A stretch of DNA of 64,000 bases, from the NCBI RefSeq assembly GCF_000217935.1, contig NZ_AFHI01000017.1, positions 1 through 64,000 of the forward strand, given 5' to 3'. Of the stretch, positions 885-15,137 are shown piece after piece. The translations under genes and the position numbers were made by a program. This DNA comes from Rheinheimera sp. A13L. GTDB taxonomy: Bacteria; Pseudomonadota; Gammaproteobacteria; Enterobacterales; Alteromonadaceae. The first letter of the stretch is position 1, and each line of letters starts with the position of its first letter. The notes beneath the pieces were generated by a model that was not told where the DNA came from, made no database searches, and saw only the letters and a list, made by a program, of their open reading frames with translations.

Positions 885-913
885 AAAAAAAAGCCCCCGC
901 TAAGCGGAGGCTT
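885..913 (-). terminator. Rho-independent terminator after the tubulin-like gene
   Basis: On the minus strand a GC-rich stem (AAGCCTCCGC paired with GCGGGGGCTT, one wobble, 3-nt loop) runs into eight T. It starts a few bases after the tubulin-like stop codon and separates that gene from the phosphatase. Confidence 0.85.
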
Positions 914-918
914 GCGAC

Positions 919-3117
919 TTAGTTTTTATCCGCGCCGGGCTCAGGTTTAGCACCTTTATCGGACAGGTTATTCAGTGAAATAACCTTAGTTTTACTGATC
1001 TTATGACGATAAATCTCACGCAGGTAGTGGATAGACTTTTTCACACTGTCGCGGGATAAACGAATGTCATTAATAGAGACGAACTTGTCTTTATTACGAA
1101 TCAGCTCCCGGTATTTTTTCTCATACATAGGTTTGATGGCATACCAGTTGGTATCGAGAATTTTTGCCGGATTTTCAAACTCATGCAGCATATCGTCAAG
1201 CCGTTGTTCGTCAAAATGATCGTCACGGATAAAGTCCAGCATGGCTTTGTCCAGCGAGTCATTAAAACGATAATCGTCTTTGGCAAAACAACGTTTGATA
1301 AAAGACACGATCAAAGTCAGGAAGTCATCACTCAAACAAGGACTCTTAACAATCAAAGTGGTCAGCGAGATATTGGCTGAAGCGCCAATCACCAGCGCGT
1401 AACGCTTTAAGGTGGTGTTTGGGAACAGAGTATTTAAATGGCTTTTCAGACGATTTAAATCCATGTACGACAGCTTGTAGTCTTTTGGCAACGAAATAAT
1501 AGACACCACAGACGAGCAGTTCTTGAAGAAATGCAGATCTTTTAAATCTTTTGGATCGTAACCACTTTTTACATAAGAAGCTAAAGCTTCGCGGTAACGG
1601 CCAGATTCGATAGGTAACAAACTGATGCCTTCGATAGCTTGCGTTACTTTATTAAAGTGGGGCAGGTCAATAGAGCGGAAAAACAGGTCATCGATATTCA
1701 GTCCACTGTTGCTGTTTTTATCAAACAACTTCAGTTTATCCACTGCAGCAGGAGTACTTGGGATCACAGACTCAGCATAAGCAACAGCCACAGGGCCTGC
1801 CAGACTCATAAATAAGTCGTTGGCATCTAAACGTATGGTTTCCCCAATGTCGATACCGGCACGGCGGAAGTAGTTTTCGTCGTAGTCTGTGGTCACAGCC
1901 TGAGCTGTTAAGATGTTAAAAATCTGCTGGGAAATATACTGGTTGGCATATTTCTCCATCGCATTGACGTCAATATGCTGAATTTCACCGTCATCGGTTT
2001 CTTCGGCGTAACGCATAATATCGTTAGAAATCAGCATCATTGCATTCCAGGGACGGATGCGGTGCATCACGCTGGATTCGGCGCTGTCTTCATTTTCCAG
2101 GTTGTACGAGAAATCCCATTCTTCAGCCAGATATTTACACAACAAACGGCCAGAGTTGATATGCAGAGCTTCTGACATTTCAACACCATGGTCTGTGATA
2201 TTCGGCAGAATACAAATACCGCTGGTGAATATAGGTTCAAACACAAAAGAATGGCCAGCGTTGGCTTCGTTTTCCATTTCTGGTCTGGTATCGAAGGTTT
2301 TCGCCATATAAGCATATTGCTGAGCCAAACCAAACTCAGATGCCATACCTGAACCTGTACCGCCGCCAGCACTGAAAATATAGAAATACAGACGGGATTG
2401 GTTGGCTTTGATACCACAGGAGTCAATCAGGTAAGAGTGAATGAATTTCCAGTCCGGGTTGGAAAACTTCTGTGTGTCTTTGTTCAGAATGATTTTCGCT
2501 AAATACTGACCCAAAATAGGAGCGTTACCTGCACCACCAGCATGGACTTCAGATAAGTCCATAATTTTCATTTTATTATAGTCTTGCAGGAAATTGGATT
2601 TTTCACCTTTATGAGAGAAACGAATACGACCTTCAATATCTTTATCCAGGTCACCCAGCATCACCAGAGGCTCAATCAAAAACACTGGTTTCACCTGATG
2701 GGACTTATCCAGATTCAAGCCTTTTTTGATCCAGCGTACAGGGCGGTATTCGGTTTCTTTTTGCTGACGTTCTTCAATATTAAATTCGTTCATATAGAAG
2801 CTGCGGGCATTATAGACCAGAGAGGCCACGTCCAGAGCTATATTAGAGCCACACCGGCCTAAGCCAATTAAACAAACCGAAGGAAACTGTTGCTGTCTTC
2901 TGTTAACGTCTTCGCCGTCTGAGGCTGGAATTGGGAAAACACTATTTCGCAAGGCATCCAGATTGGACAGGATCCGACTCAGGTCGCGTTCAGTGAAATA
3001 CATGTAGCGGCCAGAACCAAAATTCAGGTCTGCTTCAGTTTCAGTGGCGGAGAATGGACGCACTGTTAAATTTACATCGTCTTTACCAGCGCCGCTTTTT
3101 ATCACTTTTGTACTCAT
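919..3117 (-). CDS. Orphan tubulin/FtsZ-superfamily GTPase-like protein
   Basis: A 732-aa protein with the nucleotide-binding signatures of the tubulin/FtsZ fold in the right order. A T1-like loop GLGRCGSN is at residues 85-92, following a hydrophobic strand. A T3-like GGAGNAP is at 194-200, closer to eukaryotic tubulin (GAGNNW) than to FtsZ. The diagnostic T4 glycine loop GGGTGSG is at 251-257 after the strand YFYIFSA. The roughly 80 residues before T1 and the long region after about 450 do not resemble FtsZ; the C-terminus (about 680-732) is basic and polar. At twice FtsZ length it is best compared with the bacterial 'tubulin-like' families (Pfam Tubulin_2 type). No segregation, phage or cell-division gene is adjacent, and it has its own terminator. 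GTP binding is likely from the motifs; polymerisation and cellular role are unknown. AAGG precedes the ATG. Confidence 0.75.
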   Translation of the reverse strand: MSTKVIKSGAGKDDVNLTVRPFSATETEADLNFGSGRYMYFTERDLSRILSNLDALRNSVFPIPASDGEDVNRRQQQFPSVCLIGLGRCGSNIALDVASLVYNARSFYMNEFNIEERQQKETEYRPVRWIKKGLNLDKSHQVKPVFLIEPLVMLGDLDKDIEGRIRFSHKGEKSNFLQDYNKMKIMDLSEVHAGGAGNAPILGQYLAKIILNKDTQKFSNPDWKFIHSYLIDSCGIKANQSRLYFYIFSAGGGTGSGMASEFGLAQQYAYMAKTFDTRPEMENEANAGHSFVFEPIFTSGICILPNITDHGVEMSEALHINSGRLLCKYLAEEWDFSYNLENEDSAESSVMHRIRPWNAMMLISNDIMRYAEETDDGEIQHIDVNAMEKYANQYISQQIFNILTAQAVTTDYDENYFRRAGIDIGETIRLDANDLFMSLAGPVAVAYAESVIPSTPAAVDKLKLFDKNSNSGLNIDDLFFRSIDLPHFNKVTQAIEGISLLPIESGRYREALASYVKSGYDPKDLKDLHFFKNCSSVVSIISLPKDYKLSYMDLNRLKSHLNTLFPNTTLKRYALVIGASANISLTTLIVKSPCLSDDFLTLIVSFIKRCFAKDDYRFNDSLDKAMLDFIRDDHFDEQRLDDMLHEFENPAKILDTNWYAIKPMYEKKYRELIRNKDKFVSINDIRLSRDSVKKSIHYLREIYRHKISKTKVISLNNLSDKGAKPEPGADKN

Positions 3118-3311
3118 GGATAACCTTCCAAGCTGTTTTTATTGTTCTGAGCTACTTTCGATCTGAGTCATAAACATAGACTTAGCTGTCTATTATTACA
3201 ATTGGCATGAAGTACAGTACAGCAAAATTATCGAAGAGAATTGAACTTTTTGATAATCAGGAAAATAAAACTGAAAAATATCGCATTATTCACACAAGGG
3301 TATGAAATAAA

Positions 3312-3355
3312 TGGGATCAGAAACTGTCGATTTTAGTTTTTTGCTTCTGATCCCA
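3312..3355 (-). terminator. Hairpin/terminator after ETF dehydrogenase
   Basis: An 11-bp perfect inverted repeat (TGGGATCAGAA / TTCTGATCCCA) encloses a 22-nt AT-rich loop just beyond the ETF dehydrogenase stop; on the minus strand it is followed by ATTTATTT. The remaining ~190 bases up to the tubulin-like start hold its presumed promoter, but I could not place a convincing -35/-10 pair. Confidence 0.6.
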
Positions 3356-3367
3356 TCCCCCTGACTT

Positions 3368-5014
3368 TTACATATTCGGATAATTTGGACCACCAGCACC
3401 TTCTGGCGTCACCCAGGTGATGTTCTGGCGTGGGTCTTTAATATCGCAGGTTTTACAGTGAATGCAGTTTTGCGCATTGATCTGTAATCGAGGCTGCTGG
3501 TTGTCCTGAACTATTTCGTAAACACCGGCAGGGCAATAACGCTGCGCTGGTTCGTCATACAAAGCTAAATTGACCTGAACAGGAATTGAATCATCGGCCA
3601 GTTTTAAATGGCAAGGCTGATCTTCTTCATGGTTAGTGTTGGATAAATACACAGAAGATAAACGGTCAAAGCTCAATTGATTGTCTGGTTTGGCGTACTG
3701 AATTTTTGGGACTTCACTGGCCGGTCTTAATGTCAGATGATCAAAAGTGTCATCTTTTAAAGTGAAGGGCAGTTTACCGGCGAAGATGTTCTGATCCAGG
3801 GTATTAAAAGCTCCGCCCCAGAACGAACCAAATTTATGCATGGCAGGGCCAAAGTTACGGCTTCTGAACAGCTCATCAAATAACCAGCTTTGCTCAAAAT
3901 GTTCTGCAAATTCAGTTAAGTCTGCACCGGCTTTATCTTGCTGCAGTGCCCCGAAAATAGTTTCAGCGGCCAGCATGCCTGATTTCATCGCGGTGTGGTT
4001 GCCTTTGATTTTGGCAAAATTCAGCGTGCCAGCATCACAACCAACCAATACACCACCAGGGAAGGTCATTTTAGGCAAGCTGTTCAGGCCACCTTTAGCT
4101 ATAGCACGGGCGCCATAAGACACACGTTTACCGCCTTGCAGATACTGTTTAATGACAGGGTGCTGTTTATAACGCTGAAACTCCTCAAAAGGGCTCAGGT
4201 GAGGGTTGCTGTAATTCAAATCAACAATAAGGCCAACCACAATTTGCTGGCTTTCGGCATGGTACAAATAACCGCCGCCGCTGGTCTCTTGTTGCAATGG
4301 CCAGCCAGCACTGTGAACCACTAAACCTTGCTGATGTTGCTCTGCCGGTACGTCCCAGATTTCTTTAAAACCCAGGGCGTAATGCTGAGGAGAGCGGCCT
4401 TTATCCAGTTCAAAACGGGAGATCAGCTCTTTACCTAAATGGCCACGGCAACCTTCAGCGAAGACGGTGTATTTACCACGAAGCTCCATGGCAGGCACGT
4501 AGCTGTCTTTATGACTGCCGTCATGAGCAACACCCATCTCGCCTGTAACCACACCTTTGACGATATCGTTTTCAATCAGCAGCTCTGCAGCGGTAAAACC
4601 AGGGAATATCTCAACACCAAGCTGTTCAGCCTGAGTGGCTAACCAGCGGCATAGATTACCAATAGACACAATGTAATTGCCTTCATTGTGCATGGTTTTT
4701 GGCACCAGAAAATTCGGCAGCTTTTGCGCATTTTTCTCATCTTTTAACAGATAAATATGGTCATGCGTAACCGAAGCTGTCACTGGCGCATTCATTTTTT
4801 GCCAGTCAGGGAATAATTCATTTAAAGCTCGGGGTTCAAACACAGCGCCGGATAAAATATGGGCGCCCACTTCAGAGCCTTTTTCAACAACACATAGACT
4901 TATTTCAGTGCCTGCTGTTTTGGCTTGTTGAGCTAAGCGGATAGCAGTCGACAAACCCGCAGGGCCTGCCCCAACTATTACTACATCAAATTCCATCGAC
5001 TCACGTTCAACCAC
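3368..5014 (-). CDS. etfD: Electron-transfer flavoprotein:ubiquinone oxidoreductase
   Basis: A 548-aa single-chain ETF dehydrogenase that passes electrons from reduced EtfAB to membrane ubiquinone through FAD and one 4Fe-4S cluster. The FAD Rossmann motif GAGPAGLS is at about residues 16-23, after VVIV. The C-terminus carries the cluster ligands in CIHCKTCD followed by KDP, then the family tail PEGAGGPNYPNM, very like mitochondrial ETFDH. The start used is a GTG with GAGG upstream; an internal ATG at residue 7 (MEFDVVIVG) is a plausible alternative. It diverges from etfB-etfA across a 212-bp region holding two palindromic sites, so all three subunits are probably co-regulated for fatty-acid or branched-chain amino-acid oxidation. 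Confidence 0.96.
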   Translation of the reverse strand: MVERESMEFDVVIVGAGPAGLSTAIRLAQQAKTAGTEISLCVVEKGSEVGAHILSGAVFEPRALNELFPDWQKMNAPVTASVTHDHIYLLKDEKNAQKLPNFLVPKTMHNEGNYIVSIGNLCRWLATQAEQLGVEIFPGFTAAELLIENDIVKGVVTGEMGVAHDGSHKDSYVPAMELRGKYTVFAEGCRGHLGKELISRFELDKGRSPQHYALGFKEIWDVPAEQHQQGLVVHSAGWPLQQETSGGGYLYHAESQQIVVGLIVDLNYSNPHLSPFEEFQRYKQHPVIKQYLQGGKRVSYGARAIAKGGLNSLPKMTFPGGVLVGCDAGTLNFAKIKGNHTAMKSGMLAAETIFGALQQDKAGADLTEFAEHFEQSWLFDELFRSRNFGPAMHKFGSFWGGAFNTLDQNIFAGKLPFTLKDDTFDHLTLRPASEVPKIQYAKPDNQLSFDRLSSVYLSNTNHEEDQPCHLKLADDSIPVQVNLALYDEPAQRYCPAGVYEIVQDNQQPRLQINAQNCIHCKTCDIKDPRQNITWVTPEGAGGPNYPNM

Positions 5015-14684: not shown

Positions 14685-14761
<77 letters not shown>

Positions 14762-14768
14762 TCAGTAT

Positions 14769-14794
14769 CTTAACACCGAGCAGAGTGTGTTAAG
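14769..14794. other. Spacer hairpin between tRNA copies 1 and 2
   Basis: CTTAACAC...GTGTTAAG forms an 8-bp stem. A related hairpin CTTAACAT...ATGTTAAG lies upstream of tRNA copy 2 at 14919-14944. Neither has a T-run on the tRNA strand, so they may be processing structures rather than terminators. Confidence 0.5.
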
Positions 14795-14834
14795 TGGGGT
14801 ACTACTTTTTTACATTACTTAAGAAAACTTAAGT

Positions 14835-14911
<77 letters not shown>

Positions 14912-14965
14912 TCCGTATCTTAACATCGAGCAGTGTATGTTAAGTCTTATAATGCAATCACGAAT

Positions 14966-15032
14966 TGGTTGCGGGAGCCGGATTTGAACCGACGCCCTTC
15001 GCCACGGCGTTATAAAGAGGAGCCCAAGGGCT
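14966..15032 (-). pseudogene. Broken tRNA-fMet-like copy F between intact copies
   Basis: The CCA end, acceptor 3' strand and T-arm are intact, but the anticodon region carries CTCTTT inside the anticodon and a GCCGTGG-type stem extension, and sequence beyond CTTGGG no longer matches the D-arm. It shares the anticodon insertion with A-C but lacks the T-arm hairpin. Confidence 0.7.
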
Positions 15033-15060
15033 AATTTACTTTACAACGCCTATCACGAAT

Positions 15061-15137
<77 letters not shown>

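Follow-up and report, generated by a model that had tools for sequence, protein, structure and literature searches.

The question raised by this locus is whether a free-living gammaproteobacterium carries a second tubulin-type protein beside FtsZ and, if so, of which kind it is and what it might do. The window, i.e. the whole 64,000-nucleotide stretch of Rheinheimera sp. A13L that was analysed, has on its minus strand, at 919..3117, an open reading frame with an ATG start that encodes 732 aa. Family searches and a pattern scan mark its product as a putative stand-alone protein of the tubulin/FtsZ superfamily, and the gene is called ftsZl2 here for reasons given below. Its neighbours, both assigned by Pfam and both on the minus strand, are etfQO upstream (electron-transfer-flavoprotein:ubiquinone oxidoreductase; 3368-5014) and, on the downstream side, a gene for a class B acid phosphatase (36-863), while the ordinary ftsZ of the same genome lies on another contig, adjoining a gene that resembles ftsA by eye. 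The stand-alone context described in an earlier note on this DNA is thus borne out. The same is true of the gene's own terminator, an intrinsic hairpin with a T-run at 891..913 on the strand of the gene (minus, running 913-891).

A further feature is visible by eye directly 3′ of etfQO, namely an exact 12-bp inverted repeat with a 22-base loop at 3311-3356. It is perhaps the etfQO terminator; our terminator scan covered loops of up to 8 bases, and this repeat is absent from its output. Matches to the RpoS, sigma-70 and sigma-54 consensus in 18 ftsZl2 upstream regions did not exceed those in shuffled sequences (z 0.8, -2.7 and -0.6, respectively). Elsewhere in the window, three consecutive tRNA-Met(cat) genes occupy 14685-15137 on the minus strand.

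The three loops that had been claimed for the 732-aa protein are indeed present in the claimed order, starting at residues 85, 194 and 251, and all are encoded on the minus strand. The T1-like loop GLGRCGSN (residues 85-92; 2842..2865) lies within residues 75-95, which hhalign aligned to FtsZ T1. It is followed by the T3-like loop GGAGN (residues 194-198; 2524..2538), where GAGNAPILG aligned to FtsZ GAGANPEVG, and by the T4 signature GGGTGSG (residues 251-257; 2347..2367), which was read directly and also found by the pattern scan. Across 106 aligned FtsZl2 members, T1 and T4 are invariant and T3 varies at residue 196 only (A in 98, S in 8); the invariance of T4 is partly by construction, since 25 of the 106 rows were chosen by the T4 motif and broken copies were excluded. 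The N-terminus of about 37 aa is poorly conserved. At the DNA level, a degenerate T4 pattern has two sites in the 4.52 Mb genome, ftsZ and ftsZl2, against none for the backward control, and its occurrence in ftsZl2 is more than chance.

The proposed HMM comparison with Pfam had a divided outcome: matches to both Tubulin and Tubulin_2 are present, but both fall below the curated cut-offs. For Tubulin (PF00091), the window protein scores E 0.0057 (17.4 bits against a cut-off of 33) and its homologue from Pseudomonas protegens E 0.0035, also below the cut-off; for Tubulin_2, the values are 0.1 and 0.016, respectively. A search of NCBIfam gave no match, the best PHROGs match had E 1.5, and no solved structure among the PDB chains matched by sequence. 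BLAST of the window protein against its own genome's FtsZ at E 10 likewise gave no match.

When a profile of the FtsZl2 family was aligned to an FtsZ profile with hhalign, T3-T4 fell in register (score 34.4, P 0.0017) and T1 formed a separate in-register match (score 28.7, P 0.01); with 19 more divergent members added, the scores were 34.7 and 28.5, respectively. The best hhalign probability between the two families is about 15%. Among the controls, the highest score was 24.8 for 27 unrelated neighbour families and 22.8 for 100 column shuffles. However, the reversed template (31.3) and the reversed query (30.9) scored above the T1 match and little below the T3-T4 match, because the glycine motif reads much the same in both directions. 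Hence, T1 and T3-T4 outscore the unrelated-family and shuffle controls, but T1 fails against the reversed-sequence controls.

A relaxed-gap alignment, run independently of our own motif reading, placed T1, T3, T4, S6, H7 and T7 all in register between FtsZl2 and FtsZ. In this alignment, MMLISND of FtsZl2 pairs with LITIPND of FtsZ at S6, YANQYISQQIFNI with AANNVLLGAVQGI at H7, and IRLDANDLF with INVDFADVR at T7, where D-x-x-D is kept. The corresponding candidates in the window protein, all on the minus strand, are S6/T6 NAMMLISNDIM (residues 358-368; 2014..2046), H7 (residues 383-404; 1906..1971) and T7 IRLDANDLF (residues 428-436; 1810..1836); the S6-H7-T7 stretch by itself has P 0.051, and neither the H7 nor the T7 candidate is significant alone. 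The T7 aspartates would be D431 and D434; all 106 aligned rows keep the T7 candidate, these two residues included, without change. An ungapped FtsZ block test was weak, its score being reached by 17 of 1000 shuffles, and it set the post-T4 blocks at positions that contradict the profile alignment; the hhalign result was preferred. Nothing in canonical FtsZ significantly matches the 296 aa that follow the T7 candidate, and this region has no Pfam or NCBIfam family match. An FtsZ-like C-terminal domain, seen by eye at residues 535-592, was rejected, as hhalign puts 536-574 on FtsZ 132-178. Taken together, the ordered loops, the hhalign matches to FtsZ and the invariance of the T7 candidate point to membership in the tubulin/FtsZ superfamily, as the earlier note had proposed.

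The type of loop is another matter. T3 had been described as closer to that of eukaryotic tubulin, but GAGNAPILG and FtsZ GAGANPEVG pair in an ungapped alignment, with the FtsZ proline and spacing kept, so that T3 is not clearly nearer to tubulin. Nor can the loops be upheld as tubulin-like rather than FtsZ-like: T3 is FtsZ-spaced and the T7 of the relaxed alignment carries the FtsZ D-x-x-D, and, as the alignments were made with FtsZs alone, no description of the loops beyond mixed, by eye, is warranted. Two features lean towards tubulin and no others, namely the serine in T4 (threonine in both FtsZs compared) and GxCG in T1, which is a tubulin motif. The likeness of the window protein to eukaryotic tubulin, CetZ, TubZ and PhuZ consists of GGGTGSG and this GxCG, and it has no sequence match to any of them among the PDB chains. 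With canonical FtsZ it shares T1, T3, T4 and, via the relaxed alignment, S6, H7 and T7 with D-x-x-D; it differs in having GGGTGSG where FtsZ has GGGTGTG, in its long insertions and in not adjoining ftsA. Two genes with similarity to FtsZ were encountered on other replicons, namely one for a 320-aa protein about 31% identical to FtsZ, annotated as hypothetical, next to a PcfJ-domain gene on a Marinomonas algicola plasmid (L174:2411-3373), and a divergent FtsZ (31.6% identity) next to a WYL-domain gene on a 0.9 Mb Pseudoalteromonas replicon (L171:287-1387).

A family with these properties is already on record. In Makarova & Koonin 2010 (PMC2875224), RefSeq was searched for GGGTG(S/T)G, and FtsZl2 was described as a proteobacterial family, typified by PFL_1302 of P. 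fluorescens (protegens) Pf-5, with a C-terminal region of about 300 aa, no associated genes and a predicted ability to form filaments. The paper gives as criteria the T1, T4, T6 and T7 loops plus H7, with occurrence in Proteobacteria only; it reports all filament elements and an HHpred similarity of E 0.0033 for PFL_1302, and states that FtsZl1 has a coiled coil and that its T6-H7 cannot be recognised (PMC2875224).

The genome of P. protegens FD6 has four sites with the T4 DNA pattern: FtsZ, a homologue 79% identical to the window protein, a 94-codon ORF and a stretch whose motif is interrupted by a stop. Because the backward control yields 10 sites in this genome, the pattern alone says little and the ORFs decide; the long motif ORFs are two in all, FtsZ and the homologue. 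P. protegens is, we take it, the species of Pf-5. Since the sole non-FtsZ long motif ORF of FD6 is the 79%-identical one, we conclude, by way of this homologue and on sequence grounds, that the window protein should be assigned to the FtsZl2 family. Comparison with PFL_1302 was by its published description (PMC2875224): both are non-FtsZ proteobacterial proteins with GGGTGSG, about 300 aa after the GTPase part and no partner genes, and no difference was found. FtsZl1 and Pfam Tubulin_2 proteins belong to the same superfamily but differ in context, as no vWA, kinase or OmpA domain was found among 10 near neighbours of ftsZl2 from five lineages; a search for Tubulin_2 proteins in 150 genomes of the phylum gave none, with 3 positives among 14 control genomes. 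The novelty implied for the protein is thereby withdrawn, the family having been published as FtsZl2 in 2010 (PMC2875224), and well over 100 of the genomes sampled here carrying the gene. In the literature, as judged from search listings, no experimental study of FtsZl2 or PFL_1302 was recognised, and in another paper the letters "FtsZl2" stand for a mutant, FtsZ L272E. The family is described already yet seemingly unstudied by experiment.

Phyletic distribution, put forward earlier as a check, proved to be patchy. When 84,980 species genomes were scanned with a pattern, 562 family-encoding stretches emerged, a number that may exceed that of genes, and the best 80 of these 562 formed our locus set, in which all loci kept bear gammaproteobacterial titles. 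Among sampled genomes, with the own genome counted where drawn, ftsZl2 is present in 130 of 199 of one Pseudomonas genus, 31 of 147 of the window's family, 16 of 60 relatives, 9 of 398 over the phylum and 2 of 369 over the class. Searches at E 1 of 72,556 records from plasmids and 50,697 from phages gave no relative, nor was there a match in a viral-contig collection or, at the DNA level, in E. coli. A search of 299 further genomes for intermediate relatives found none, the next E after the full-length matches being at least 0.24. Identity to the window protein is 73% or more in the intact copies compared and about 60-74%, over most pieces, in decayed ones. Six genomes (G054, G043, G548, G563, G1091 and G1000) have copies with stops or fragments and two (G1021 and G860) have partial copies, although some partial copies may be assembly ends. 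Among the loci, decayed copies with stops or fragments are seen at L130, L132, L133 and L134, in other genera. Absent from 367 of 369 class genomes and broken in several, ftsZl2 is evidently dispensable.

Where the gene is intact, it is nevertheless well kept. Across 24 loci, the identities of FtsZl2 and etfQO co-vary (r 0.95 over 276 non-independent pairs), so that in these loci ftsZl2 has been inherited with the chromosome. For pairs with etfQO below 95%, the median identities are 85% for FtsZl2, 79% for etfQO, 80% for etfA and 87% for etfB, and the Rheinheimera and P. protegens proteins share 79% identity for FtsZl2, as opposed to 62% overall and 72% in the core for FtsZ. FtsZl2 is more conserved than FtsZ and etfQO, with etfB higher still, as would be predicted for a protein with numerous contact surfaces; intact FtsZl2 is constrained like core enzymes. 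In five of the eight gene-lacking congeners compared (out of 10), the phosphatase gene directly follows etfQO, and hence the site exists without ftsZl2. Three gene-lacking congeners (L120, L121 and L126) have a different gene after etfQO, presumably cydA. A recent gain by the window's genome was considered and rejected, and the pattern was read as loss, since other genera keep ftsZl2 beside etfQO and the identities co-vary. In the family tree, the Pseudomonas rows fall together, plus one long row (G095), and Paraglaciecola is nested within a Rheinheimera group, from which some lateral transfer of ftsZl2 appears possible.

Conservation of gene neighbours, the second check that had been suggested, was followed in the best 80 of the 562 loci, with the etfQO-linked group, Cellvibrio, Paraglaciecola, Alishewanella and Pseudomonas as the lineages compared. 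No neighbour cluster within 6 kb is common to these main lineages, a GGDEF-domain cluster excepted, and an operon partner for ftsZl2 was rejected on this account; the result matches the lack of associated genes by which FtsZl2 was described. The GGDEF cluster, the sole one to cross lineages in this set, comprises one Paraglaciecola and 21 of 45 Pseudomonas-group loci. Its two scanned members (L037:7498-8484 and L077:6638-8914) differ in architecture, and the proximity of these c-di-GMP genes is probably due to chance, such genes being common. In 25 of the same 80 loci, etfQO lies upstream, the hosts being Rheinheimera, Arsukibacterium, Alkalimonas and gammaproteobacterial MAGs. The 10 near neighbours taken from five lineages encode ordinary enzymes, a cell-wall L,D-transpeptidase, a ribosome maturation factor and c-di-GMP proteins, and PADLOC matched neither these nor the window protein. 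From its isolated position, ftsZl2 would seem to have no dedicated adaptor encoded next to it.

Structure prediction with AlphaFold gave no usable model, either for the full-length protein (27 rows, pLDDT 33.5) or for residues 76-455 (59 rows, pLDDT 31.6), probably because the alignment members are too alike, with identities to the window protein of 76-84% in input alignment A2 and 82-99% in A3. The rows used were 27 of 28 representatives (L047, whose ORF starts at a contig edge, was left out) and 59 of 73 possible fragments; alignment A1 held 14 of 15 representatives, again without L047.

In the tubulin superfamily, GTP is held between T1-T4 and T6-H7, and the acids of the next subunit's T7 trigger its hydrolysis. 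Given that all these GTPase and T7 elements seem present in FtsZl2, dynamic protofilaments are the likeliest mode of action. Our main reading, with a probability of about 0.6, is that FtsZl2 would be a GTP-dependent polymerising protein that forms dynamic head-to-tail protofilaments and has an accessory role beside FtsZ. GTP would be bound between loops T1-T4 and T6-H7, and D431 and D434 from the T7 of the next subunit would complete the site, upon which GTP would be hydrolysed. The protofilaments would assemble and disassemble head-to-tail in the cytoplasm, independently of FtsZ, while the first 37 or so residues and the 296-aa stretch beyond T7 would set lateral contacts or attachment to membrane or cargo. 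The role would be that of an accessory scaffold or positioning filament and not one in essential division. The loops with their order and conservation, the lone position of the gene and its inheritance are observed; every step from GTP binding through hydrolysis and polymerisation to a role in the cell is inferred. A tentative extension, about which we are more doubtful than hopeful, is that FtsZl2 represents a third, self-sufficient and chromosomally inherited kind of tubulin filament, additional to FtsZ and to the tubulins of plasmids and phages, that works without operon partners in free-living gammaproteobacteria and owes a filament architecture of its own to a new C-terminal region, with a non-division function.

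The elements after T4 match FtsZ weakly, no family match was found for the 296 aa beyond T7 and partner genes in common are lacking, all of which would also suit a tubulin-fold GTP switch or scaffold without dynamic filaments, in which GTP alters the shape and the C-terminal region is the output. We consider such a switch rather unlikely, since it would have no need of the T7 candidate, whose two aspartates are invariant in all 106 rows. Patchy distribution and repeated decay would be explained if FtsZl2 modulated FtsZ or phage tubulin filaments, by co-assembly or capping or as an accessory anti-infection defence; yet the protein evolves slowly rather than fast, phage, plasmid and viral-contig collections hold no relative, and PADLOC is silent on the window protein and its 10 near neighbours from five lineages, which makes this improbable.

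TubZ and PhuZ set a precedent for prokaryotic tubulins outside division, and FtsZl2 could by analogy be a segregation or anchoring filament left by a plasmid or phage. With no relative among the plasmid and phage records searched at E 1, and with identity that follows etfQO's in the 24 loci over non-independent pairs, we give this hardly any credence. It is also very improbable that the protein is no tubulin at all, i.e. a different nucleotide-binding protein with glycine loops by chance, even though the AlphaFold confidence is low, no solved structure matches, the Pfam scores are below the cut-offs and the reversed-sequence controls come near the match scores. Three loops in order with S6, H7 and T7 in register argue against it, as does the HHpred value published for PFL_1302 (PMC2875224).

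FtsZl2 has been a named family since 2010 and is found in easily handled Pseudomonas species. Its study would show whether a second bacterial tubulin-type filament serves outside division, plasmid partition and phage positioning.
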